A stretch of 64,000 nt of DNA from Rhizobium glycinendophyticum (GTDB lineage: Bacteria; Pseudomonadota; Alphaproteobacteria; Rhizobiales; Rhizobiaceae): contig NZ_VFYP01000004.1 in NCBI RefSeq assembly GCF_006443685.1, positions 186,001 to 250,000 on the forward strand, in the 5' to 3' direction. The position numbers and the translations under genes are program-made. Of the stretch, positions 13,014-58,411 are shown piece by piece (position 1 is the stretch's first letter; each line of letters begins with the position of its first letter). The notes beneath the pieces were generated by a model. It searched no databases, was not told the DNA's origin, and saw only the letters and a program-made list of their open reading frames with translations.

Positions 13014-14179
13014 GTGTTGAATGAGATGACGAGAGGAAGATCAAACAGGCGGGCCCAGGCCTCGCTGCTCGCTCGTTGAATGTCGATGATCGATGTCCCT
13101 AAGGTCCACCATCCGTTTCCAACTGCAATAATGGCGTCAGGGCGGTGGAACGCCGATTGCAAAACCGGCCACACGAGGAGCTGCTCGTAGCAGACCAGCG
13201 GCGCGACTTTTGCAGTGCCGACCTCGACGACGGAGTTGGCGAAGAAATGTGCCCGCGCGCCAGCTACATCATCACCACCACCAATCAAGCGTCTCCAAGG
13301 CTGCCACATCGATCCAGGCACCGGCATCCTCTCCCGGTAAAGAATCTCCGTCCTCTGAGAGGATATCGTCACGAGCACGTTGTCATAGCCGCGACCATCG
13401 ATAAGCGCCGCTCCAGCGATGACCGTCAGTTCCGTCCCGGTGAGCCCCATATGCCAAAAGCGAGCCAGAGTCGGCGTCCAGAAACCAAGAGCGCTTTCCG
13501 GGAACACGACCGTCGTGCCCGGCGGGTGACGGCGAACAATGTCGATCAGATCTTGTTGCCGCTGGAGGGCCGCGTCGCGGCCAAGAGATGCACCCATTTC
13601 CAGATCGACAGCGGTCCACGACGTCGGTAGGATCGGCGGCGTCCACTCAGCGGCGGACCAGAGCCAGAAGCCTGCCACGGCCAAGGCTGCAGCAGGCCGA
13701 TACCGCGTCGTCATGACGATTAGGCCGGCTGCCATCGCTCCCAGACCCCACCATCCCCAGCCGGGAAACAGAACGCCTGCGGCGGTGATCGGATGTGCCC
13801 ATCCCAGGATGCCGAAGGGTGGAACCGCCATGGCGACGCATGCAGCCAGGTAGCGAAGCGGCTTTTGCCATCCCTTGCGATCGGCCCAGAGCACCGCATG
13901 GACCGCCACGAAGGCGGAGGAGGCGACCAGCCATAGCAAGAGACCCGGCCAGATATCCGAGGAGTAGAAGTTCGCCGCACCCTGCGGCAGACCACGCGAT
14001 GCCGCGAGGAAATAGACAGCGGAAATGACGGACGCCTGGAGACGCGTCACCGCCAAGGACCAAAGCATCGGGAATGCCCCAGTGACGGGCAAGAGAAGCG
14101 CGTCACCGCTCCAGCCGATCCAGCCGGCGCTGATCGATAGTGTGACGAGCAGACCCGTTCGGACGAGCTCACGGCGCAT
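13010..14179 (-). CDS. traB: Conjugal transfer protein TraB
   Basis: 389 residues; a polytopic membrane protein whose second half is a carbon-nitrogen-hydrolase (apolipoprotein N-acyltransferase-like) domain. About five membrane helices cover residues 5-180. In the hydrolase part the Glu (VVFPESALG) and Cys (PLVCYEQ) positions of the nitrilase triad are present, but the segment that normally carries the catalytic Lys reads YRERMPVPG, without lysine. Ti-plasmid TraB raises conjugation efficiency, mechanism unknown. The start at ATG 14179 overlaps the end of traF by 11 nt; longer frames upstream lie inside traF. Confidence 0.9.
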   Translation of the reverse strand: MRRELVRTGLLVTLSISAGWIGWSGDALLLPVTGAFPMLWSLAVTRLQASVISAVYFLAASRGLPQGAANFYSSDIWPGLLLWLVASSAFVAVHAVLWADRKGWQKPLRYLAACVAMAVPPFGILGWAHPITAAGVLFPGWGWWGLGAMAAGLIVMTTRYRPAAALAVAGFWLWSAAEWTPPILPTSWTAVDLEMGASLGRDAALQRQQDLIDIVRRHPPGTTVVFPESALGFWTPTLARFWHMGLTGTELTVIAGAALIDGRGYDNVLVTISSQRTEILYRERMPVPGSMWQPWRRLIGGGDDVAGARAHFFANSVVEVGTAKVAPLVCYEQLLVWPVLQSAFHRPDAIIAVGNGWWTLGTSIIDIQRASSEAWARLFDLPLVISFNT

Positions 14180-14735
14180 AGGTCCAGACCTCTCGCGCCA
14201 GTCCGAGGATTCCATCCATCGACAAAGGACCGGAGTACCGGCTGTCGAATGATCCCGGAAACTCGGAATGCAGGAAGACTGCGCCGGGCGGTACGACTCC
14301 GCCATCGTAGTGCACCATCTCTCGACCCTGACCGTCTATCCGTGCAACGCGAGAGTGAGGGAGTGGCCGACCGTCGATGCGGACATCGTCATGGATCTCG
14401 ATCACCTGTCCGGACGTCGCTACGACCGTCTTGATCAGAGGCGCAACGCGGCCCGCGCAGAGGCCGAAGCGCAGATATCCACGCGCACGCGCCTCGCGCA
14501 TCGTGTCGGTGTTCGGTGGGCAAATGAAGACCAGATCGCCGACCAGGATCGGCCGATCGGGTTTGACGATCCGCCACAGGCCCAAGGGCTCGCTTGGTGT
14601 GAGATTGACCCTAAAACCCTGACCTCCGAGCAGTACAATGAGGCCAAGCGCAAACAGGCTGACGCTGCTGATCCGATAGAACCAGACGAGCCGTTTCATG
14701 CGCCGTAGCACTCTATGTCGATGACGCATCTTCAT
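14169..14735 (-). CDS. traF: Conjugative transfer signal peptidase TraF
   Basis: S26-type serine peptidase of the TraF family; in RP4 TraF matures and cyclises the TrbC pilin. 188 residues: basic N terminus, one membrane helix at about residues 22-40, then the catalytic Ser in NLTPSEPLGLW and the catalytic Lys in PLIKTVVA, both in the expected order. The ATG overlaps the traA stop codon (ATGA), and the stop lies inside the start region of traB, so the operon is translationally coupled. Confidence 0.93.
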   Translation of the reverse strand: MKMRHRHRVLRRMKRLVWFYRISSVSLFALGLIVLLGGQGFRVNLTPSEPLGLWRIVKPDRPILVGDLVFICPPNTDTMREARARGYLRFGLCAGRVAPLIKTVVATSGQVIEIHDDVRIDGRPLPHSRVARIDGQGREMVHYDGGVVPPGAVFLHSEFPGSFDSRYSGPLSMDGILGLAREVWTYAP

Positions 14736-17700
14736 TTTAGAGTAAGCCCCTGAGCCCTTGTCTGCCGCAGCGCTTCAGTCTGTTTGAGTGCCGTCACGCT
14801 GCGCTTGTGGGCAGACAGTTGCTGCACGGTCCGCATCGTGTTCCAGGCCTCTTGCACCTCGCTTTTCTGGGCGGCGTTCATACCTGACGTCACCCGATGG
14901 AAAGCCTCGCCGGTGGTGTCCTTCGCGGCGAGGGGCAGGAAGGTTCTTTCCCCGAAGCGTTCGGTAACCGCCTTGGCGAAACCTTCGAGTTCAGCCTTCA
15001 CCATTTTATCGGCGAGCGCATATTCGAGACCCGAGGGAAGGTCGTTGCGGTCGATGGCGTCACGCACCCGCTCCAGCACGCCTTTCGCATTTGACGAGAG
15101 AGCCGGGATCTCCAGCGCAACCTGACGACGCACCGCCAGTTCTTCGGCGTGATTTCGACGCTCGGCATCGCCACGCTGGCGGAGATAATCGCTGATGCTG
15201 TCGGCGAGCGGCGTCACATTCTTGAGCGCCCGGTCCCGGTCCGATTTGTCAGCGCGGCTGGCGAGGATACCCGTCTTGCCCTTGAGGGCACCGAAGGTTT
15301 CAGGCTCGCTGGCGATCCTGGCGATGGTCTTTTCCGCAGCTGCCTGGTCGCGCAACATCGCATCGAGGTCGACGGCTTTGAAGGCGCTTTCCGGCTGCGC
15401 GTAGACGTGATGGAAGCGCATCGAGACTTCTTCCCATTGCTTCTTGAGCGCCGGGTCTGCAGCGAGCTTGTCCTCGACCGCCTGGTCGATCGATTTCGGG
15501 AAGGTGGTGATACCGGCCACCATGGGCTTGGCCTCCTTTGCTGCAGTGGGAACTGTTCTGGCCGTCGATGTTGCAAAGCCGAGTTTGGCACCGATGGCCG
15601 CAAGCTTGCCGGCGAGATCGACGAGCTTTTGCCTCTGCCGGACCGTCCATTCGAGACGGTCGCGCGCGACGGTTCTGGCGACGTTGACGATGTGAAGGCC
15701 GCGCGCCTCGGCAAAGCGGAGGGCCTGCCGGTAGATGCTGCCGCCGGCGTAATCGAGTGTCGTATCTTTGGAATTCCTGCGCGACAGGATCTCGACCAGA
15801 CCGCCGGCTTTGGCGAAGGATCGGCGGCCGTAATAGACGCCGAGATCTTCACGGTGGCGGGTCATCGCCACATAGGTAAGGTGACGATCCAGCGAAAGGG
15901 GCGCCAGCACCTTGACCCGGTCTACGGTCGCGCCCTGGCTCTTGTGCACCGTAGTCGCATAGCCGTGATCGATATTGTTGTAGAAGCGCTGTTCGACCGT
16001 AACCTGGGCGCGATGTTCGCCATCGCCAATCACGGCCACGAGGCGACCCGGTGTGGCTTCCAGCACCTTGCCCAGCATGCCGTTCTTGACGCCAAGCGAA
16101 CTCTCGTTTTTCAGGAAGACAATCTGGTCGCCGGCAGCAAAGCTTCTGACACCGTCATCCGTCTTGAACGGCGAACCGTGCTCGATAATGCCGCGCTCGA
16201 TCAGTTTCGTGCGCGCCAGCTCATTCAGCATGCGGACGTCACGGCGCAGGTGCGCAAGGATCAATGTGGACTTGGCAGGATCGTATTCGCGGTTCCAGTC
16301 CGAGATGAGGTTGGTCACCGCATCGGCCTTCAGCTCTGAGCCAATCATCTTGCCATTAGATTGATAGGCTACGAGGGCTTTGCCGACATGGCTGCGCGCG
16401 AGATCGAGCGATGCGTCGCGCATCCATTGCTCTCGCTGGCGATAGATTTTTTCAAGTTCTGCATAGCCGATACGATCGGCAATAGCGCGGAAGGCAGCAC
16501 CCGCCTGGATCGGCTGAAGCTGCTCAGGATCGCCGACAAGCACGAGCTTGGCGCCAGCTCTGGTGACGGCTTTGACGAATGTCGCCATCTGCCGCGACGA
16601 CACCATGCCGGCCTCGTCCAGAACAAAGATACTCTTGTCGTCGAGCTGGTCGCGACCCTGGTTCCATCGGAGTTCCCAAGACGATAGGGTACGGGAGAAA
16701 ATGCCCGCTTCCCTCTCCAGACCTTCAGCCGCCTTGCCGGCAAGCGCACCACCGACGACACGATAGCCGGCAGCCTCCCATGCCTCGCGCGCAGCCCTCA
16801 TCATCGTGGTCTTGCCGGCGCCGGCGCGGCCGATCACGGCGGCAACCCGTTCAAAACCAGCGACATGTTCGATGGCGACTTTCTGCTCATCGGAAAGACG
16901 TGCATGGCGCGCGAGGGTCGCCTCGAGCACCGGTTTCCGGACGCCATGCGAAGACCGCTGCGAGAGCCAGATCGCGCGCTTGGCCATCTCAGCCTCGAGG
17001 CGGATCAGCTCGCGTGTCGTGTATTTTGCCGGCGCACAGATCCCGGTCACGAAGTCCAGGCGTTCGCGATCGAGCCGGAGGGTTTCCGGGCTCTGCAGGA
17101 TGCGCGCCATCAGGCTTTGGAAGAGGCCTGCATCATCGATATAGCGATGCAGGATCTTCGCGACATCGCGCTCGTCGAAGACGCTCTTCTCCCGCGTAAT
17201 CATGTCGAGCACGATCTGCGGATTGCGTAGGATGCGGCGGGCGTTCTCAGCCCGACGTTCCTCTTGAAGCTCCAGCCGTTCGAGCGCAGCTTTCTCCTCC
17301 GCAGCTTCCGCTTTCCGCTCGATCGCCTTCGTGCCGACGCCGAGATGGATCGTCGGGGTCAGCTCAATGCCCTGCTTCTCGAAGGACCGACCATCGATCC
17401 TGATATCGAGACCGGCAAGTGCCAGGTGCCTGTTCTGGCAGGCGAACCATCCGTCGCGAAACGCGTTGAAATCATCAAGCCCACCGGCCCAAAGCTCATA
17501 GACGATTTTGCCGCTGTCATTGCGCAGCGCCTTGCCGTCCGGTCCCACGGCGGCCACCTTCTTCGGCCCGAACCCGTCCTCGGTCAACGGCCGCAACGTC
17601 GTCATCAGATGGATGTGCGGATTGCCAGGCGCGTTGTGGAATACCCAGTCTGCCACCATGCCCTGAGCTGTGATGTGCCGCGCCACAAAGTCCCTGACGA

Positions 17701-18040
17701 GCTCGATGTTCTGCTCGGCCGAGAGTTCAATCGGCAAGGCGATGGTCACGTCCTTTGCAAGCTGCGCATCAGACCGTTTCTCGAACTCCTCGACCTTGTT
17801 CCAGAACGCTTCCGAAGCTCCCGAGACAACCCGATCGGCAATCATCGATTGCAGCCATTCAGGCGCATCGGCGGGGATGATAAACTCCTCATGAAGCAGA
17901 CCCCGCTTGCGGGTGTAGTCGGTCGTCCGGGCTTCCCGCTCATAGTCCATCTTGGCGCAATGGCGATACGCCGCCGACAGCACCGCGCTGCGGCCGGAGC
18001 CGCGGGCGACGATGCTGACTGAGAAATGCGGGACCGCCAT
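14732..18040 (-). CDS. traA: Relaxase-helicase TraA
   Basis: Large bifunctional DNA-processing protein: it nicks oriT and unwinds the transferred strand. 1102 residues from ATG 18040 (MAVPHFSVSIVARGSGRSAV, the usual family start; an upstream ATG at 18064 adds 8 residues). The MobA/MobL relaxase domain occupies residues 1 to about 240, with the metal-binding HIH in GNPHIHLMTTLRP at 142-144. A RecD/TraI-type helicase follows, with Walker A GRAGAGKTT at about 404-412, FVLDEAGMV as motif II, and HKSQGATVDRV late in the domain. It is divergent from traC, with oriT between them. Confidence 0.97.
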   Translation of the reverse strand: MAVPHFSVSIVARGSGRSAVLSAAYRHCAKMDYEREARTTDYTRKRGLLHEEFIIPADAPEWLQSMIADRVVSGASEAFWNKVEEFEKRSDAQLAKDVTIALPIELSAEQNIELVRDFVARHITAQGMVADWVFHNAPGNPHIHLMTTLRPLTEDGFGPKKVAAVGPDGKALRNDSGKIVYELWAGGLDDFNAFRDGWFACQNRHLALAGLDIRIDGRSFEKQGIELTPTIHLGVGTKAIERKAEAAEEKAALERLELQEERRAENARRILRNPQIVLDMITREKSVFDERDVAKILHRYIDDAGLFQSLMARILQSPETLRLDRERLDFVTGICAPAKYTTRELIRLEAEMAKRAIWLSQRSSHGVRKPVLEATLARHARLSDEQKVAIEHVAGFERVAAVIGRAGAGKTTMMRAAREAWEAAGYRVVGGALAGKAAEGLEREAGIFSRTLSSWELRWNQGRDQLDDKSIFVLDEAGMVSSRQMATFVKAVTRAGAKLVLVGDPEQLQPIQAGAAFRAIADRIGYAELEKIYRQREQWMRDASLDLARSHVGKALVAYQSNGKMIGSELKADAVTNLISDWNREYDPAKSTLILAHLRRDVRMLNELARTKLIERGIIEHGSPFKTDDGVRSFAAGDQIVFLKNESSLGVKNGMLGKVLEATPGRLVAVIGDGEHRAQVTVEQRFYNNIDHGYATTVHKSQGATVDRVKVLAPLSLDRHLTYVAMTRHREDLGVYYGRRSFAKAGGLVEILSRRNSKDTTLDYAGGSIYRQALRFAEARGLHIVNVARTVARDRLEWTVRQRQKLVDLAGKLAAIGAKLGFATSTARTVPTAAKEAKPMVAGITTFPKSIDQAVEDKLAADPALKKQWEEVSMRFHHVYAQPESAFKAVDLDAMLRDQAAAEKTIARIASEPETFGALKGKTGILASRADKSDRDRALKNVTPLADSISDYLRQRGDAERRNHAEELAVRRQVALEIPALSSNAKGVLERVRDAIDRNDLPSGLEYALADKMVKAELEGFAKAVTERFGERTFLPLAAKDTTGEAFHRVTSGMNAAQKSEVQEAWNTMRTVQQLSAHKRSVTALKQTEALRQTRAQGLTLK

Positions 18041-18095
18041 GAAGAGACAAGCTCCTTCGATCAAATAAAATCATTGCGTTGGACAGGAGCTGGTG

Positions 18096-18175
18096 GCCCC
18101 GCCAAGGGGCAGAAGCAGAGCGTCGCATCAGCGACGTATAATTGCGCCCTTCGGATCCGTTCCTGCGAACGGACG
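18096..18175 (+). other. oriT: Origin of transfer (oriT), Q-type
   Basis: Between the divergent traA and traC operons. A hairpin CGTCGC-ATCA-GCGACG (18121-18136) is followed directly by TATAATTGCGCCCTT (18137-18151). The core ATTGCGCCCT matches the nick region of RSF1010/Ti-type oriT, in which an inverted repeat lies just 5' of TAAGTGCGCCCT and the cut falls after the CCCT. By analogy the nick is on the plus strand at about 18150/18151, and DNA rightwards of it (traC, traD, traG and beyond) leads into the recipient. Further inverted repeats are GCCCC/GGGGC at about 18096 and TCCGTTC/GAACGGA at 18156-18173. Confidence 0.88.
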
Positions 18176-23378: not shown

Positions 23379-23642
23379 ATGATTTCTCCGGTCGATTGCG
23401 TTTCGTCGCGGGGTGAAATGCGGATCGGGAAGGAGTGCCGCACCGAGCACGGCCGAAGCGCAGCGGAGGACCTGAGGTTGGCTGAATTTTGCTGCGCGAG
23501 GAGCCAAAGGCTAAGGAAACTTCTGCCGGCATCAGGTTGCGGCGGGACGCACGATCCGCATCATTCCCAATGTCGATGAAATGGGATCGACAGGAGAATT
23601 GCGGCAGCTCGACTTCGAAGACGACGGACGATGGAAACCGCC

Positions 23643-24132: not shown

Positions 24133-24441
24133 TCAGTCGCGGTTCGGGCGGGACCAGATGAGCTGGAGGCCTTCCTCGCCTTCGACCTCGGCGAGCGTTG
24201 CGTAGATCGGAGCCGGGAAGCTCGGATCGTCGAGCTTGACCGAGAGGTAGTCGCGGCCCTGCTCGGAGGTCTTCTGCCAGGCGGCGCCGAGTTCGACGCT
24301 CCCGGCATAGACGCGGAACTGCGGGCCTTTGTCGGAGGGGTTCTCGACCCGGGCGATGCGTGCCTTGACGTTGAGGGCGAGCGTGCGAATGGAGCCGGTG
24401 AAGCCGTTTTCGGTGGAGGTGAAGGTGCCGATGGTAGCCAT
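24133..24441 (-). CDS. DUF736 family protein
   Basis: 102 residues from ATG 24441: [20 protein letters not shown], then the family [13 protein letters not shown] and [20 protein letters not shown] blocks. DUF736 proteins are small single-domain proteins very common on rhizobial plasmids and ICEs; function unknown. The N-terminal position and length match the family, and the frame upstream to 24558 is non-homologous. It has its own terminator, and its leader lies in a very long imperfect palindrome (24482-24683). Confidence 0.9.
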
Positions 24442-24481
24442 TGTCGTATTCCTTTTCTCAAGTTCGGGCCGCGCCCATCGC

Positions 24482-24683
24482 GGCCTCGATGGCAGTCGAC
24501 AAGACCGGAGACGATCGGGCCGCACCTGATAAGGCCGCAATGCAATGGAGGGCGGCAAGTCGCAGATTTGTTAGTGGGCGAGGAGGGGACCACAGGTCGC
24601 CGGGGTAAGAAATCTGAGCCTTGTCGTTGCGGGAAGACGATCGAGGCGCAGCCGGTCTCCGGTCAGACATGCCCCATCGAGCC
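24482..24683. promoter_or_regulatory. Extended nested palindrome upstream of DUF736
   Basis: Five pairs of arms share one centre near 24585: GGCCTCGATGGCA/TGCCCCATCGAGCC (24482/24670), GACCGGAGAC/GTCTCCGGTC (24503/24655), CCGCAA/TTGCGG (24535/24627), CAAG/CTTG (24556/24620) and CAGATTT/AAATCTG (24563/24610). A single strand of this DNA could fold into an interrupted 200-nt stem. I propose a promoter active in single-stranded form, or a protein-binding structure. Confidence 0.5.
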
Positions 24684-24900
24684 CGCAGATGGGCTGCCGG
24701 AAACTCTGTCGTGAAGGGATATGGCAATGGCGCTCACCGCCTTTGCTCATGGGAAGAGTGGCAACCCGGCTTATGCTCCGCCCGTACAGGCGTCGGAGTC
24801 CGCCTCGGTTGGGGAATGGGTCCCGTGCGAACGTCGTCCGACTTGCCTGCCATGCCCGGTGCGATATCGTCGCGCTCGCGAATCGCAGCCTGGAGGATCA

Positions 24901-25074
24901 ATGCGTCAGCAGACCAAGCCGTTCATCATTGAGCGCAAACCTTCCCGCAAACCGAAGCCAGACACTCAAAAACCGTCGATCTGGGGACGGCTGGATGCAG
25001 ACATCGCACAGGGTCTCCAAGATCAGCGTGATATGGAACAAGCGGCCGCCACCGGTGGTGACGACCACGCCTGA
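24901..25074 (+). CDS. 57-aa hypothetical protein
   Basis: MRQQTKPFIIERKPSRKPKP..., with KPSIWGRLDADIAQGLQDQ in the middle and an acidic end. ATG 24901 follows a GGAGG site 4-8 nt upstream. The basic N terminus and short acidic tail suggest a nucleic-acid- or protein-binding peptide; no family recognised. It converges with the ArdC-like gene, the two stop codons being 3 nt apart. Confidence 0.6.
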   Translation: MRQQTKPFIIERKPSRKPKPDTQKPSIWGRLDADIAQGLQDQRDMEQAAATGGDDHA

Positions 25075-25077
25075 CCT

Positions 25078-26001
25078 TCAGGCCGCAGCCTTCAGATCCG
25101 CCTCTGGCTGCAGGGAATGCAGGAAGCTCACCGCGCGCTGCGCGTGAGCCGCCGCCTGGAAGATGGCCCGCTTGTCGTTGGCAAGGACCGATAGCCAGGA
25201 CTGCAGGTAGGACGCGTGATCGGGCCGTGGCTCAAGCTCCGGAGCGATGCCAAGGTCGGCGCAAAGGAAGCAACTGCCGAGCTCGGCGATGAGCTCTTCA
25301 CGGGCTCGTTCTGTCCGATCCTTTGCATAGCGCGACAGGTCACGGCCGACGCGGCCCTCGGCTGCTGTCCAGTGCGTCGCCTCATGGCTGAGGACGGCCG
25401 CGTATCCAGCAGCATCGCGAAACGCCTCGAAGGGCGGCATCTGGATGTAGTCCATGACGGGTGAGTAGTAGGCCTGACTGCCGCCGTGCCGGATGACTGC
25501 GCCCGTCGCGTTAATAAAGCGATCGGCGCTCTCAATACGCCCGACAGGATCCCGCATCGTGGCCGGCGGGGTATAATAGATGTCTGGCAGGCCATCGATC
25601 TGCTCTATATTGAACACCGAATACGCCTTCAGGAACGGGATTTCCCGGTCGACATCGTTGCCATTCCCGTCAGCCACCGCCTTGGTGAACCGACTGGCGA
25701 AGACCACCGTCGAGCCCGTTTCGCCCTTTCGCACCGCTCCGCCCAGTTCGAGAGCCTGCTTGAATGTCATCCACATCGAGGAGGAGAAGCCGCGCGACAG
25801 CTGCGCCGACCACAACAAGAGCACGTTCATGCCGGAGTAGGGCAGGCCGTTATGGCGCACCGGCCGGGTAATCCGGTCACTGGTGTTGGCGGCGCTCCAC
25901 GGCTTCATCCAGGGGCGCACGCCCTGTCCGAGATCCTCGACGATCCGGTCGGTGATCCGCGTGTAGATGTCGATGCGATCCGCTTCCGTTTTCCTGGTCA
26001 T
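25078..26001 (-). CDS. ardC: ArdC-like antirestriction protein (zincin fold)
   Basis: 307 residues. The N-terminal ssDNA-binding domain (about 1-130: RPWMKPW, RHNGLPYSGMNVLLLWSAQ, FASRFTK) is followed by a zinc-peptidase domain with HEATH (the HExxH motif, about residue 210) and a downstream Glu (REELIAELGSCFL). In the IncW plasmid pSa, ArdC protects incoming single-stranded DNA from restriction. On this plasmid it lies in the leading region, on the strand whose template would be the incoming DNA, and behind a long palindrome. The symbol is given by family; exact orthology is not proven. Confidence 0.88.
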   Translation of the reverse strand: MTRKTEADRIDIYTRITDRIVEDLGQGVRPWMKPWSAANTSDRITRPVRHNGLPYSGMNVLLLWSAQLSRGFSSSMWMTFKQALELGGAVRKGETGSTVVFASRFTKAVADGNGNDVDREIPFLKAYSVFNIEQIDGLPDIYYTPPATMRDPVGRIESADRFINATGAVIRHGGSQAYYSPVMDYIQMPPFEAFRDAAGYAAVLSHEATHWTAAEGRVGRDLSRYAKDRTERAREELIAELGSCFLCADLGIAPELEPRPDHASYLQSWLSVLANDKRAIFQAAAHAQRAVSFLHSLQPEADLKAAA

Positions 26002-26040
26002 GGCTTCTTCTCCTTATCTCAAGACCGCGCCTGTCGCGGT

Positions 26041-26166
26041 CCGTCACGGAGGTCCGAAGCCAGGAGCCGATGGTGCGCCCATGCACCGGAACGGCCGCAA
26101 CAGCGTGGAGGACGGCAAAGCCGTTGCATGGGCGCCCGGCTCCTGCAGGACCGCCGAGCGGGACGG
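26041..26166. promoter_or_regulatory. Extended nested palindrome upstream of ardC
   Basis: Arms with a common centre near 26104: CCGTC/GACGG (26041/26162), GGTCC/GGACC (26051/26148), CAGGAGCCG/CGGCTCCTG (26061/26137), GCGCCCATGCA/TGCATGGGCGC (26075/26125) and ACGGC/GCCGT (26091/26120). The 5' end lies 40 nt upstream of the ATG. A candidate ssDNA promoter, as for DUF736. Confidence 0.55.
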
Positions 26167-26252
26167 GCCACGATAGCGCACGTCTTCAGCCTTCATTTTC
26201 GACACAAGAAAAGGCCGGCGCTGCAGGCGCTGGCCTCGGGGGGAAGAATGAG

Positions 26253-26271
26253 GGCGGGGCGTTGCCCCGCC
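26253..26271 (-). terminator. Hairpin behind the 195-aa gene
   Basis: Perfect stem GGCGGGGC-GTT-GCCCCGCC, 8 nt beyond the stop of the minus-strand gene. A second, less regular hairpin (AGGCC...GGCCT) lies 15-30 nt further downstream. The T run is weak. Confidence 0.6.
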
Positions 26272-26278
26272 GATGGTG

Positions 26279-26866
26279 TCATCCGAGAGCAGTCATCTGA
26301 GCTTCGGCCGCCTTGCGGTCGAGCGATGCGCCGGGGTTCTCGACCGGGCGGTCGAACGGCTTCCAGCTCTCACCGACAACCTGTTCGTAGGCGGCCACAG
26401 CCCCTTCGGCCGCCATTCGCAGCGCGTGGGACTGGACACCCATGTCGGCGGCGAATTCGCGCTTGCGCTGGGCGGCGCTGCCATAGCCTACCGGACCGTC
26501 GAGGTCTTCGTCGCGGGCGTCATTCGATGCCTTGGCGGTAGCGTCACGCGCCTCTGTGACGGCGCGGGAGTAGAATTGCCCGGCGCCATGCGCGGATCCG
26601 ACGAAGGCCCCGACAATGCGCTGGAGATGGATCTGCATCGCCTTGTCGCCGAGGCCTTCGGACAGGCTTTCGGCGGTCTCGACGATCAGCCGCTCATGCA
26701 GGCTGCGGATGCCATCGCTGTCGATGACTGCCGTGCCGAAGCTTGTCGCAATCTTGGACGCTTGGGTGGCGTCGGGGCAGGAGAGGCGGACCATTTCGAG
26801 GGTGGTAGAACGGCGAGATTGCGAGACCCGTGCGTTTGAGCGATTTGGGGTAGAGGCCTTGGCCAT
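26279..26866 (-). CDS. Conserved hypothetical plasmid protein (195 aa)
   Basis: From ATG 26866 (MAKASTPNRSNARVSQSRRS). The basic N terminus is followed by a mainly helical protein (LVIVETAESLSEGL-type stretches, QMHLQRIVGAFVGSAHGAG). No domain recognised. The start is preferred over an upstream ATG at 26932 because that part is low-complexity and lacks a ribosome site; GGAAGGAAC lies just before 26866. It has a private leader palindrome and terminator, so it is probably monocistronic. Confidence 0.7.
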   Translation of the reverse strand: MAKASTPNRSNARVSQSRRSTTLEMVRLSCPDATQASKIATSFGTAVIDSDGIRSLHERLIVETAESLSEGLGDKAMQIHLQRIVGAFVGSAHGAGQFYSRAVTEARDATAKASNDARDEDLDGPVGYGSAAQRKREFAADMGVQSHALRMAAEGAVAAYEQVVGESWKPFDRPVENPGASLDRKAAEAQMTALG

Positions 26867-26936
26867 GTCTGTTCCTTCCTTGGCTTCCGAAGCGGTTCCG
26901 GCCCGTGCCGGTCTGCCCTTCGATGCGGGCACTCAA

Positions 26937-27111
26937 GAACCGGCAAGGGACGGACGGCTTCACAGGTTCGATCCGACCGAGCCAGCAGGGCAGGTTTGCG
27001 GGGCCAGCAGGTCTTGACCTGAGCAGGCCCGCAAGCCTGCCCTCGCGCAAAGAGGTTGGATCGGCCGCGCCGCGGCGCGCTAGCGGCCTTGAAACGACCG
27101 GCCGCCGGTTC
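26937..27111. promoter_or_regulatory. Extended nested palindrome upstream of the 195-aa gene
   Basis: Centre near 27015. Arms: GAACCGGC/GCCGGTTC (26937/27104), CGATCC/GGATCG (26969/27058), AGGGCAGG/CCTGCCCT (26987/27036), TTGCGGG/CCCGCAA (26996/27028) and the inner CAGGTC-TT-GACCTG (27008-27021). The inner 57 nt alone form an almost unbroken stem. Same architecture as the ardC and DUF736 leaders. Confidence 0.55.
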
Positions 27112-27265
27112 AGACCGCAACGAAAAAGAAGGGCAGTCCGGCACGGATCAGTTTTCAGATGCATACCAACGAGGGACCATATGGGCCGAGCCCGCCACCC
27201 AGGGAGATGCCGTGGCCGCAAGCTGACTAGATGCCACCCAACGCACATTCCCGTTAGAGGTCCGC

Positions 27266-27576
27266 CTATCCCGCCACCGGCGAGTTGGACGCATTACCGC
27301 AATGCTCGAGCGCGTCGATGATCTGGTCTTGAACCGCCAGCCTCAATGCGAGCGTGTCGAGTTCGCCCCACCGTTCGAAAGCCAGGTGATCGGCCAGCTC
27401 CGATAGTAGAGCCGGGGACTGAAGCGGCGGCGCGCCCGGCTCCGGACCTTCACGGGGATCGCCTGCCGCCCGGCGCGCGCTGCAATCTGCCGGGCCAGGC
27501 AATCGAGATGCCGCTGGGTCTCACGTCGGGTGCCGATTGCCTTGTCCAGCGGTTTCGGAGCGCGAACGTCTATCAT
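27266..27576 (-). pseudogene. Small gene with probable frameshift
   Basis: Begins at ATG 27576, overlapping the preceding gene's stop by 4 nt (ATGA), so it was translationally coupled. The first frame reads MIDVRAPKPLDKAIGTRRET, then RHLDCLARQIAARAGRQAIP and LYYRSW, and degenerates; the neighbouring frame then reads ADHLAFERWGELDTLALRLA, VQDQIIDALEHCGNASNSPV and ends at 27266. Joined, they make a plausible ~103-residue protein. A one-base deletion near 27390 would explain it. Family unknown. Confidence 0.45.
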
Positions 27577-28466
27577 GAGCCATCCCCCCGACCTCGCCAG
27601 CCGATGAAGGAGGACGGCCCATGATATTCGGCGTGACGGTCGGGATCCATGACAAAGCCAAACCGGTCGCGCCCAGCATACTCGTCGCTCGGCACCAGGA
27701 AGCGACGCTCATCGTCGTCAGATCTCCGGTCACCACCGACGACAGCCACGACCTCGGTCATGCCGGGGTGTTGAACGGAGAGGATTGCCGAAGTGACGAT
27801 ATAGTCTGCCGCATGACGCTGATCGAACGCCCGTCGATCCCTCGCCCAGCTTTCTCCCTCGGCCAGCTTGGCGCCGTGGATCGCCTCCCAGGCATCCGGC
27901 CAGGTATTGCGGATGGTCTTTTCGGCCGCGGCTCGCTCATATCCAGTGAACAGGTCCGGAAAGGTGATTGCCACGATCGCCCATTCGCAATCTTCCTCGT
28001 ACCATGGCGTGTCCTTCCGCAGCAGCGGATGGATTTTGGCATTTCGGTCGGCAGATAGGTGAAAACCACCGTGGCCGGCCGTGCTATGAGCGACGACGCC
28101 CTCGGTATAGATGACCGCCATCTGCGAGCCACCCCAGGGCGTGCTCATAGACATGCGCGTCCGCGCGCGGTTCAGTTCCGCCAGATCGCGCTTGTGACCG
28201 GCGATCTCGGCAACGCGCGCTCGAAACTCATCCTCGTCGGCCACCCGCCCGTCGTGTCCGATGAAATCGGCGCGGGTCAGCTCAGCGAGCGGCCGGCGCA
28301 CGAAGACGGCACTCGCTAGGAATACGAAGCCGCTGGGCGACGTGACCATGGCAAGGACGGTGTCATCAATGCGAGCGACGGGCATGCCGTCCGCGCTTGT
28401 CGCAAACTCCACCCCCGAAAGATCGGGGGTGGGTGTTGCCGAGCTTGACTTCAGGGCGCCGGTCAT
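27573..28466 (-). CDS. Conserved plasmid protein, DUF7007-like
   Basis: 297 residues; soluble, with no clear catalytic motif. It resembles a family of rhizobial plasmid proteins that follow the ParB-like gene (blocks TPWGGSQMAVIYTEGVVAHS, TAGHGGFHLSADRN, and PWYEEDCEWAIVAITFPDLF). The Trp/His/Asp-rich centre could be an active site, but this is only a guess. The start overlaps the ParB-like stop by 4 nt (ATGA) and the next gene overlaps its stop in the same way, so the three form one operon. Confidence 0.75.
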   Translation of the reverse strand: MTGALKSSSATPTPDLSGVEFATSADGMPVARIDDTVLAMVTSPSGFVFLASAVFVRRPLAELTRADFIGHDGRVADEDEFRARVAEIAGHKRDLAELNRARTRMSMSTPWGGSQMAVIYTEGVVAHSTAGHGGFHLSADRNAKIHPLLRKDTPWYEEDCEWAIVAITFPDLFTGYERAAAEKTIRNTWPDAWEAIHGAKLAEGESWARDRRAFDQRHAADYIVTSAILSVQHPGMTEVVAVVGGDRRSDDDERRFLVPSDEYAGRDRFGFVMDPDRHAEYHGPSSFIGWRGRGDGS

Positions 28467-30208
28467 GCGGCCGCCCTCTGATCGAAATCCTGGTCGTGGC
28501 CATCGTCGACCTCGGCGTCGTGCAGATCATCCTGACCCGCCTCCTCTTCGACCGGCCCCTCATGCTCTTCAGTGGTGCCGCCAGTATCACCGTCTTCGTC
28601 ATCCTGGGAGCCCGTGCCGATGACGTCAGCGGCAGCACCCGCGCGGATCCAGTCGAGTAGTTCGTCGGCCGGCGGCGCGAAGCGGCCGGAAGGATGGACG
28701 AAGTGTTCGGTCGCAAAATGCTCGACGAGCGCTGCGCGGGTTTCCCGCACCTTCTGCCGTGGCTGAACCGATGCCTCGGCGCAAGATGCTTCCAACGCCT
28801 GGCGCGACAGGCACAACAGGAAATCTTCCGAACCCATGTTCGGCAGGAATTCATCAGCGCCGATCGCCTCGCCGGCGATGCGCGCGACCATGCCGCTATT
28901 CGACATGCCGCGACGGCACGAGAGCACATCGATCAGCACAGAGCGAACGGCGACTCGAAGCGCATCTTGATTAAAGGCGAGCTTGCCATGCTCGTCGAAC
29001 AACCCGACGGCGTGGCGCGAGAAGCGCTTGCCGCCATAGAAGGTCCCATCCGCGCCGGAGTCGATGCGGGCGTTCTGGCCGGCAAAGGCCAGCACCATCA
29101 GCGCCATCAGCATATCGTCCTCGATCGGCGCGCGGCCTAGTGCGTCGTGCAGCGCATCAGTGCGGAAATCGCCGATCATGTCATGACCCTTCTGGGTCAC
29201 ATCCGGTCGGGCCTTATGCGTGGCGATTGCGTCGTCGTCGCCACCGACAGAGCCGTTACCAGCAGTGCCCTTCGGCTTCGCGGTCTCGGGCATGCGATAA
29301 TGAACAGTTTGCACCTTGCCGTCGCGATCGAGATAAAGTGCCGTGTGGTCCGACTTGGACGGCTTGCCGTAGACTTGAGACGCCTTCTTCGGCAGCTCCG
29401 GCTGGCCCCAGCTGTTGACATCGACGATCGCACCCTTCTTCGGCAGATTGTTCGTCATCCATTCATGCTGGGCACCGAGAAATCCCTCGACATTGGTGGT
29501 GTAGCGGCCGTCCTGATCAGCCGGCGCGAAGAGATCCTCGACCCATTCGATCCCGTAGGCCTGAGCAAGATCGTCGCCAAAGCTCGCATCCTTGGCGTAC
29601 ATGCGCTTCTTGGTCAGCGCGTTGGCGATCTGCCACCAGGGCGCGGTGTCACCCTGCTTCGGTTTGTGGGCTTTCCAGACCTCCTTCTGGTCGACCTGGC
29701 CGGCAGCCGCGATGACGCGCAACTGCTGCTCGGACGGCATGTCACCCAGGGCCATCTGTTCGAGCATGGCCGGCAGGACGTTGGCGAGCAGGCGCAGCTT
29801 GCGGATCTGGCGGACGGGGAGGGCAAGAGCAACCGCGATCGCTTCCTCGGTCCAGCCGAGAGCAACCAGCCGTTCGATACCGCGCCACTGGTCAACCGGG
29901 TTAAGAGCCTCGCGAACGCTGTTCTCGACCATGGACCGCATCGCCCCGTTATCGTTGGCAGCGTCTGCGACGGGGATCTCGATTTCTTCGAGACCGGCGG
30001 CGATAGCGAGCCGGACGCGACGATGGCCGGCGTCGATGATATAGCCGTTTCCGCCATCCATTTCGGGTGCAACCACTGGCGGCTGGACGATGCCGACGGC
30101 CTTGATCGTCGCCAGCATTAGCGCATCTGCCTGCGGTGACGACTTCGACTGGCGCATCCGGTCGGGGTTTTCCTTCAGAGCGCGCGGGTCAACCTTCATG
30201 ATCTGCAT
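28463..30208 (-). CDS. ParB/RepB/Spo0J-like nuclease-domain protein
   Basis: 581 residues from ATG 30208, which has an AAGGAACC ribosome site; an open extension to 30526 is not homologous. The N-terminal ParB domain (about 1-100) includes IKAVGIVQPPVVAP, the AGHRRVRLA box and NDNGAMRSMVENSVREALNP. Then comes a KorB-type HTH (GWTEEAIAVALALPVRQIRK), a long middle region, and an acidic Asp/Glu-rich tail. No ParA gene is nearby, so a classical partition role is doubtful; such proteins are common in plasmid leading regions. First gene of a three-gene operon. Confidence 0.87.
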   Translation of the reverse strand: MQIMKVDPRALKENPDRMRQSKSSPQADALMLATIKAVGIVQPPVVAPEMDGGNGYIIDAGHRRVRLAIAAGLEEIEIPVADAANDNGAMRSMVENSVREALNPVDQWRGIERLVALGWTEEAIAVALALPVRQIRKLRLLANVLPAMLEQMALGDMPSEQQLRVIAAAGQVDQKEVWKAHKPKQGDTAPWWQIANALTKKRMYAKDASFGDDLAQAYGIEWVEDLFAPADQDGRYTTNVEGFLGAQHEWMTNNLPKKGAIVDVNSWGQPELPKKASQVYGKPSKSDHTALYLDRDGKVQTVHYRMPETAKPKGTAGNGSVGGDDDAIATHKARPDVTQKGHDMIGDFRTDALHDALGRAPIEDDMLMALMVLAFAGQNARIDSGADGTFYGGKRFSRHAVGLFDEHGKLAFNQDALRVAVRSVLIDVLSCRRGMSNSGMVARIAGEAIGADEFLPNMGSEDFLLCLSRQALEASCAEASVQPRQKVRETRAALVEHFATEHFVHPSGRFAPPADELLDWIRAGAAADVIGTGSQDDEDGDTGGTTEEHEGPVEEEAGQDDLHDAEVDDGHDQDFDQRAAA

Positions 30209-30288
30209 GGGACGGTTCCTTTCAGGAGAGTTCCGGACCGGCGCCTTGCCAGTCCTTCCTGTCTTCATTTTCTTTTCGAAGACACCTC

Positions 30289-30443
30289 CCGGACCGCCGA
30301 TCAGCCGGACTGCCGCAACTGCGGCGGAGCATCCCTGCTGCGTAGAGCGAGCGGGGCTAACAGTCTTGCGAAGGACAAGCAGCCGGGATGACGCAGGCGG
30401 CGGTTGAGCGAAAGCGGCGGCAGGAGCACCGATCTGCGACCGG
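30289..30443. promoter_or_regulatory. Extended nested palindrome upstream of the ParB-like gene
   Basis: Centre near 30361. Arms: CCGGACC...GATC/GATC...GACCGG (30289/30431, imperfect), CTGCCGC/GCGGCAG (30310/30417), CTGCG/CGCAG (30319/30392), CATCCC/GGGATG (30330/30385) and GCTGC/GCAGC (30337/30379). Less perfect than the ardC leader but with the same design and placement, about 80 nt before the start codon. Confidence 0.42.
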
Positions 30444-31403: not shown

Positions 31404-31407
31404 AAAA

Positions 31408-31434
31408 ATGGGCCTGCGGAAAACCGCGGCCCAT
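31408..31434 (-). terminator. Terminator behind the methylase-helicase operon
   Basis: Stem ATGGGCC-T-GCGG / CCGC-GGCCCAT with an AAAA loop and one bulged base, followed on the minus strand by seven T. It lies 135 nt beyond the methylase-helicase stop and 5 nt beyond the convergent 86-aa gene. Confidence 0.8.
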
Positions 31435-31568
31435 GAAGTGTGGAGATCTAAAACCTCCAGAGGGGAACAGCTGCTGCGACGGAATTGGGAGGTGACCGTC
31501 ATGCGCATCAGCTGAAGGCACTTTGCCCGAGTTTTGACCAGCTGGATAACATTTATTGTGCAACGCAG

Positions 31569-38495: not shown

Positions 38496-38627
38496 TGCCG
38501 CAATCTGCGGGTCACCTCTGTCCCGCCGCGAAGAGCGGAGGGGGCAAGGGCGCAGTGCGCAACTGACAAAAGTTGCAGCAAGCGCTGCGGTGAAGCTTCC
38601 CTTGCGGCCGACAGGTCGCCAGCGGCA
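38496..38627. promoter_or_regulatory. Extended palindrome upstream of the toprim gene
   Basis: Centre near 38569. Arms: TGCCGC/GCGGCA (38496/38622), GCAAGGG/CCCTTGC (38544/38599), CGCAG/CTGCG (38551/38585) and GCAACT/AGTTGC (38559/38571). A further small hairpin CCGC...GCGG is contained in the left half. Same placement as the other leader palindromes. Confidence 0.4.
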
Positions 38628-57694: not shown

Positions 57695-58411
57695 ACGCAG
57701 ATGAAGGGAAGCGATGTATCGCCTGGCACCGTCACCCTCAGACGTATCGCGCTAGCCTATTTTCGGTTCGGAGACAGGGAGCCCAGGTCGTTCTCGCCAC
57801 TGCAGCGGGCGGTCATGCCAATTTGCCCAACTTCAGAGAGCCTTACCCGCTGAGGACGAGCGCCCGTCCTTTTTCTCCTCGACAAAGGGGCGAGACGACC
57901 TCGCCAACACACTGCCCCCGGGCAAATGATACTTCCGGATTTCGACGCATCTCAAAGTTCAATATGCTGGCATGATAGCTAACGACAGAAGCCACGCCAT
58001 GGCCTCCGCCTCAGATTGACGTGAATTGCGGGAAGCCGGTCGCGATAGTTCCTGGAAAGACCTCCGAAGTTCCCCCGTATCCAACTGGCGGACGCCTTCT
58101 GACTTTAGAGCAGCCCAACTCAGCGGCTCTCCTCGCGGCACATGCCTTTCATATAAGCGGAATGGAAGGCCGTAGACGCATCGTCTGGCCATTGAAGAAT
58201 CGTTCGCCGTTCGCACCGATTTACGACGCTTAACTCGCCAGCGAAACCTCGCTCAGGCACCGTGATCTTGTCAGAAGCCGACGAGGGAAGATGACACGAA
58301 CGAATAAGCGGACACCCTCGCATGGCGCTTACCGGCGAAGACACAAAGCGAGGGGGCCACGGAAGCAAAACCGAATATCGGCTGAGTTAAACCAAAACGG
58401 GGTACAGGTTG
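57695..58411. other. Region of decayed sequence
   Basis: About 720 bp downstream of the truncated regulator. It should contain the lost TPR region, but I could not recognise it beyond the first codons. Short frames on either strand (for example minus 57959-58216) have no ribosome site and no family. Confidence 0.4.

Follow-up and report, generated by a model that had tools for sequence, protein, structure and literature searches.

How might the first genes of a conjugative plasmid to enter a recipient be switched on while the incoming DNA is still single-stranded? The question is raised by a locus of Rhizobium glycinendophyticum (contig NZ_VFYP01000004.1, positions 186,001 to 250,000; this stretch of 64,000 nucleotides (nt) is the window below), in which the genes for a DUF736 protein, ArdC, a 195-amino-acid (195-aa) protein, a ParB-like protein and a toprim protein follow long leaders with nested complementary arms. 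A sequence-only reading of the window had likened these leaders to Frpo of plasmid F, in which a stem folded on the transferred strand (T-strand) serves as a single-stranded DNA (ssDNA) promoter. We show that transcription units of the leading region have in front of them a family of nested, covarying leaders, oriented so that the T-strand is the template. The further proposition, that the nested arms fold on the T-strand and work like an Frpo ssDNA promoter, has in our judgement an even chance of being right.

Nested covarying leaders precede leading-region genes

We folded the plus strand, as the T-strand, of each leader over the span first proposed for it, using DNA parameters and 300 dinucleotide shuffles per leader. 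Four of the five leaders beat their shuffles, as a stable stem-loop of Frpo type on the transferred strand would: DUF736 (z -2.9), ardC (z -4.5) and the 195-aa gene (z -5.2, and -7.8 for 26900-27160), each with 0/300 shuffles as low, and toprim (z -2.3; 3/300). The ParB leader of the window did not. Across 28 control upstream regions of the window the mean z was -0.26 (standard deviation (sd) 1.45), and the lowest control folds reached -3.7 (traA side), -3.1 (6620), -2.7 and -2.5; since some control regions also fold well, folding energy would not be sufficient evidence by itself. When the whole window was scanned in 639 tiles, toprim ranked 2, the 195-aa leader 7, ardC 17 and DUF736 33; rank 1 went to a tile over a small RNA (sRNA), and the ParB leader lay outside the forty tiles listed. 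Among homologous leaders (the first 36 per family) the mean z was -2.7 for ArdC, -1.8 for DUF736, -1.9 for the 195-aa gene and -2.4 for ParB, with fractions of 0.67, 0.42, 0.39 and 0.53, respectively, below -2.

Two samples of genomes of the family were searched for ArdC homologs, many of which are distant: 95 of 199 genomes carry them in the first sample and 199 of 394 in the larger second. The leader comparison drew on 120 stretches around such homologs. This comparison covers the ArdC, DUF736, 195-aa and ParB leaders, which are recognisably the same elements across genera. Because of insertions, RNAalifold gave poor structures on raw MAFFT alignments, and helices were instead drawn from columns with at least 60% Watson-Crick pairs; the first ArdC set went from 57 leaders to 40 after removal of 16 loci with unrelated upstream regions (by eye) and one duplicate. 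The nested arms of 14 aligned ArdC leaders had a covariation of 0.245 versus 0.108 (sd 0.013) when shuffled, with 0/500 shuffles as high, and the same nested structure with slid partners scored 0.081 at best. For the other three families, helices were fixed on a first set of loci and tested on later loci, all below 95% identity to every member of that set. With 0/200 shuffles as high in each case, the nested arms scored 0.196 versus 0.036 for DUF736 (35 later leaders), 0.150 versus 0.040 for the 195-aa gene and 0.100 versus 0.022 for ParB. Read from aligned sequences, this is strong evidence that the nested arms are under selection for pairing. The nested palindromes in front of the leading-region genes are thus real, four of five by folding and four families by covariation, and the compensatory change proposed for their arms is found in the ArdC, DUF736, 195-aa and ParB families.

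The orientation of the genes fits the same picture. The minus strand carries DUF736, ardC, the 195-aa gene, the ParB-like gene with DUF7007, DUF1419 with a 1696-aa helicase-like protein, and the toprim gene; the TraG coupling gene is on the plus strand. A nick-like site, which we take to resemble the RSF1010/pTi nick consensus, begins at 18139. A cut there would make the plus strand the T-strand, with DNA from about 18.1 kb rightwards entering first, and since the leading-region genes all lie on the minus strand, the incoming plus strand would be their template. A covariance model of the ArdC leader matched 45 places in 35 of the 199 genomes. Where a match shares a contig with traA (23 of the 45), its strand is that of traA (23/23), and it lies 5' of traA in 22/23, at a distance of 4.9-38 kb, so that the incoming T-strand is again the template. 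The remaining match could be explained by a circular plasmid opened in the contig, and on the circle its distance would be about 9 kb. These 23 arrangements are related by descent and speak for consistency, not as 23 independent tests. The strand geometry described in the sequence-only reading therefore extends beyond the window, and both the leading-region position and the T-strand as gene template, as in Frpo, are found here, given the nick consensus that we assume.

The leader set recurs in rhizobial plasmids. By BLAST, 568 plasmid records contain similar DNA (E <=0.01), and in 266 of them most of the query is covered. pTiC58 carries the genes and the ardC leader, which makes the system testable in a standard laboratory setting. 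A search for the ParB-like protein across the order was set aside, as it returned mostly general ParB domains. In two of seven further matches examined, the gene behind an ArdC-type leader is not ardC: one leader (L169:3955-4102) precedes a 207-aa protein without Pfam match, and another (L173:7548-7691) a SLOG-family (YAcAr) protein. The ArdC-type leader behaves as if it moved as a module.

Which strand carries the fold

A mutating G-C pair passes through G.T or A.C. A sense RNA tolerates G.T, whereas a folded T-strand tolerates the mismatch that reads as A.C in the sense orientation, being G.T on the T-strand. A first hint of a strand contrast came from folding without G.T pairs. In the nested arms of the ParB, 195-aa and DUF736 leaders we counted 30 GT and 77 AC cluster events at the first loci and 44 and 99 at the later loci; in the proximal helices, between the nested arms and the start codon, the GT/AC counts were 32/14 and 39/20. 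At the later loci the contrast between nested and proximal helices has a Fisher p of 4.5e-6, with the same direction in each of the three families. From base composition alone, a GT fraction of about 0.43-0.44 is expected for these families, and the later loci depart from it on both sides (nested 0.31, p 0.002; proximal 0.66, p 0.0006). A stricter resampling of whole columns gave 0.31 (0.22-0.42) for nested and 0.68 (0.52-0.81) for proximal helices, with a permutation p of 0.00085. Background stems, taken from 60 of the sources, were even (GT 200, AC 202). The excess of G.U over A.C in sense that an RNA riboregulator should display is reversed in the nested arms of three families and is displayed by the proximal helices. 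The mismatches thus signal T-strand folding in three of four families, with ArdC neutral.

The loops give a second view, drawn from related sequences. Among C-G-closed triloops on the T-strand, GNA makes up 61/147 in ArdC, 46/108 in DUF736 and 22/82 in ParB leaders; read on the sense strand, GNA triloops number 6, 2 and 4, and the background holds 591/6678. The ardC loop of the window is AAA, while GNA is the commonest class in its homologs. We know of no special RNA loop among the sense forms of the enriched triloops. As DNA, GNA mini-hairpins are described as extraordinarily stable (PMC4686876), and in phage N4 a template-strand hairpin whose loop has a sheared G:A pair withstands EcoSSB, a single-stranded DNA-binding protein (SSB), which melts the hairpin of the other strand (PMC4496689). 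In three of the four families, loop chemistry therefore points to a fold on the T-strand; the exception (195-aa) is not that of the mismatch data (ArdC).

Several results weigh against folding and promoter action on the T-strand. The ParB leader of the window folds no better than chance (z -0.7; 65/300 shuffles as low), so the proposal that the leaders outfold shuffled sequence stands for DUF736, ardC, the 195-aa gene and toprim and falls for ParB. Part of the A.C excess in the nested arms is base composition, and per-column sign tests alone are not significant for nested (p 0.17) or proximal (p 0.12) helices. Counted by events, the nested arms of ArdC leaders show no preference (GT 85, AC 78); their raw cells hold 156 sense G.T versus 112 A.C, near their own composition. 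Terminator stems, a weak RNA control from all sources available at that stage, gave GT 27 versus AC 15 (p 0.09). A control with Frpo itself failed, the twelve Frpo-type sequences being too alike (GT 18, AC 13). Covariation in the proximal helices was equalled by 3/200 shuffles for ParB, 28/200 for DUF736 and 184/200 for the 195-aa gene. In the 195-aa family the triloop signal is reversed, with GNA once on the T-strand versus 25 times on the sense strand, of 128. A scan for a sigma-70 -35/-10 pair found none above shuffles in most leaders, which is no refutation, as the same scan also misses F's own Frpo. In the related element of plasmid R388, compared below, the core motif lies on the T-strand itself, opposite to rhizobia and F, if the R388 nick sequence, which we assume, assigns that strand correctly. 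Mutation bias on the exposed T-strand could also mimic the mismatch contrast, but it should hit the proximal helices too. The Frpo-like reading is thus partly supported: it survives, in the main, both the check on folding and the check on compensatory change, and the strand geometry agrees with it.

If the nested arms do act as T-strand promoters, the single-stranded T-strand would fold them after conjugation. GNA triloop mini-hairpins, often present, could resist SSB, and the folded stem would be a double-stranded entry site for RNA polymerase. Since the nested arms appear to act as T-strand DNA and the proximal hairpin as RNA, transcription would start between them. With the T-strand as template, RNA polymerase would read towards the gene, and the messenger RNA (mRNA) would include the hairpin closest to the start codon, which in many ArdC leaders would adjoin a hairpin that pairs with the Shine-Dalgarno sequence. 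Once the second strand is synthesised, the fold would be lost and the promoter silenced. The mode of action would be that of Frpo in a GC-rich sequence that is for the most part unrelated, and priming of the second strand may be a further role. If true, a conserved alphaproteobacterial set would point to a way in which ardC and other entry genes switch on before the second strand is made, in plasmids by which symbiosis and tumour genes are spread. The contrast between G.T and A.C would offer a way to ask whether a conserved fold lives on RNA or on the transferred DNA strand.

Other explanations share parts of this evidence. The whole structure might be an mRNA leader, transcribed from an ordinary double-stranded promoter and controlling translation or decay, which we consider unlikely although it has real weight. 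It would account for the RNA-like G.T excess in the proximal helices, for the Shine-Dalgarno-pairing hairpin in 52 of 91 ArdC leaders (loose pattern) and for the lean of ArdC nested arms to sense G.T in raw cells; the ardC promoter of R388 looks ordinary by eye, and the burst of R388 ardC after transfer has been explained by repressor feedback (PMC3937220). It does not predict the reversed RNA signature in the nested arms of three families, nor that the enriched T-strand loops are a known specialty of DNA. An antisense RNA from the plus strand that folds with the nested arms and regulates the genes would also show G.T pairs on that strand, yet GNA triloops are a DNA specialty and we saw by eye no consistent plus-strand terminator after the arms; we hold such an RNA to be very improbable.

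Two further possibilities leave the fold on DNA. The folded T-strand could be an initiation site for the complementary strand, to which primase, primosome or RNA polymerase is recruited, with gene proximity secondary. The T-strand folding signal and the toprim gene in the region agree with this, but at the loci read the leaders stand directly before genes and in gene orientation, and we judge it a rather improbable account. Cruciforms or dyad operators on double-stranded DNA would explain the palindromes and the well-conserved proximal hairpin of the ArdC and DUF736 leaders; they hardly come into consideration, given that mismatches and loops are strand-asymmetric and that the interrupted arms span up to about 240 nt.

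Leader architecture and neighbouring features

The sequence-only reading had described the leaders as different in sequence and alike in design. The difference in sequence holds only in part, since the ArdC and DUF736 leaders share a 17-nt core motif (CYYCAYNNCRTTNCGGC) and a proximal GGCCGCGATSGGCGCGGCC hairpin. The hairpin, at <=3 mismatches, is present in 76/91 ArdC and 68/79 DUF736 leaders, and a looser form of the core in 52/91 and 63/79. The window holds two core matches at <=1 mismatch, a number also reached in 7/100 shuffles. In the DUF736 proximal hairpin, sense G.T events outnumber A.C (11 versus 6). A weak TTGAAR-N16-CAGACC pair, found on the T-strand in 43/79 of the 195-aa leaders, is the best candidate box pair. 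Coordinates are collected in the table.

Table. Leaders, genes and related features of the window.
Feature	Position	Strand	Basis or remark
Rfam sRNA Atu_Ti1	13641-13732	+	Rfam
TraA relaxase, Ti-type	14732-18064	-	domain and family matches
Nick-like site of origin of transfer (oriT), TAATTGCG/CCCT	18139..18150	+	pattern match; between traA (-) and traC/D/G (+)
DUF736 gene	24136..24441	-	PF05284; start 24441 from sequence
Proximal hairpin GGCCGCGATGGGCGCGGCC of DUF736 leader	24467..24485	-	possibly in mRNA 5' untranslated region
DUF736 leader, nested region	24498..24671	-	ends set by eye
DUF736 leader, family-consensus helices			TGTC/GACA, GACCG/CGGTC, CGATCG/CGATCG, CCGCA/TGCGG, CGGCC/GGCCG, CAACTTT/AAAG..
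Core motif CYYCAYNNCRTTNCGGC, exact, in DUF736 leader	24534..24550	-	motif search
ardC (ArdcN + MPTase-PolyVal)	25081..26001	-	PF08401, PF18818
ardC leader, four nested arm pairs and apical hairpin	26023..26174	-	model R1, 139 bits
Core motif with 1 mismatch in ardC leader	26094..26110	-	motif search
Apical hairpin ACGGC-AAA-GCCGT of ardC leader	26112..26124	+ (T-strand)	sequence
195-aa gene	26282..26866	-	no Pfam or NCBIfam match
195-aa gene leader	26903..27146	-	19-nt outermost arms 26903-26921/27128-27146 around nested arms
ParB-like gene	28466..30208	-	NF010406 plasmid partitioning protein
ParB-like gene leader	30289..30443	-	weak fold in window copy; homologs have covarying arms
Rfam sRNA ar15	31404-31513	-	Rfam
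toprim gene leader	38496..38627	-	evidence from folding alone

At gathering score, Rfam gave no match to the leaders; its only matches in the window, ar15 and Atu_Ti1, lie elsewhere. A further leader-like element occupies 23380-23620 on the minus strand, with the core motif at 23468 (2 mismatches); the tile 23401-23600 has a fold z of -3.5, and a similar place in pTiC58 holds a 56-aa hypothetical gene. The DUF1419 unit has a similar leader by eye in 4 sequences; its 160-nt upstream region in the window, one of the controls, was outside the six best-folding controls. In many homologs a tract that is purine-rich on the sense strand (pyrimidine-rich on the T-strand) lies 5' of the ParB and DUF1419 leaders, again by eye. 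Loops of several leaders (L063, L064, L081, L118) contain an inserted palindromic unit, CACCCC..GCGC..GGGGACCCCGG, as if they tolerated a small mobile repeat. At its C terminus the TraA relaxase carries a BID domain of the kind found in Bartonella effectors.

Comparison with known single-strand promoters

To our knowledge, the experimental demonstration of ssDNA promoters is confined to a few enterobacterial plasmids. Searches of the open literature, whose coverage omits most subscription papers and preprints, yielded no report of such elements in rhizobial or Agrobacterium plasmids. Samuel et al. 2024 likewise predicted leading-region promoters upstream of anti-defence and related genes; their Frpo-like candidates differ in having been found by -35/-10 consensus and BLAST, and the main text of that paper contains no occurrence of 'rhizob', 'agrobacter', 'alphaproteo' or 'ardC' (PMC11541004). 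The early promoters of phage N4 resemble the rhizobial leaders in having a hairpin on the template strand that has a stable loop of three bases and is kept with SSB; they differ in consisting of a single short hairpin that a phage polymerase reads (PMC4496689).

Frpo1 and Frpo2 of F share with the rhizobial leaders an interrupted nested stem on the T-strand before leading genes, with gene orientation alike. A ParB-family gene and an antirestriction gene are present in the F leading region, as in the window. The region before ssb, whose deletion stops early ssb expression (PMC9849209), folds in the same interrupted nested design. The sequences differ: the apical arms of F are A/T-rich and the rhizobial arms GC-rich, and the published Frpo stem rebuilds -10/-35 boxes (PMC9849209), whereas none were recognised in the rhizobial leaders. 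Model R1 detected no sequence homology to Frpo, matching neither F nor ColIb-P9 at E <=10. ColIb-P9, for which Frpo homologs are reported (PMC9849209), has no exact match to the core motif either. In F, the core motif matches exactly at 58295 and 63684 and nowhere else; from their position and PMC9849209 we infer that these sites are Frpo2 and Frpo1. Two matches at <=1 mismatch arise in 1/100 shuffles of F's 22-kb stretch. The match was noticed by looking, and the core profile reaches only E 0.48 at both sites, so we treat it as a lead only.

In R388 (IncW), where ArdC is needed in the recipient and not in the donor (PMC7213743), an element at 25404-25541 (L194) matches model R1 (41 bits) and a core profile (E 1.5e-11) and stands before a leading-region gene. 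We tentatively suggest, while holding it somewhat doubtful, that rhizobial plasmids including Ti carry a distinct class of GC-rich ssDNA promoters, often with GNA mini-hairpins, before their leading units, and that the short core common to these leaders, F Frpo and the R388 element hints at an ancient signal for reading incoming plasmid DNA.

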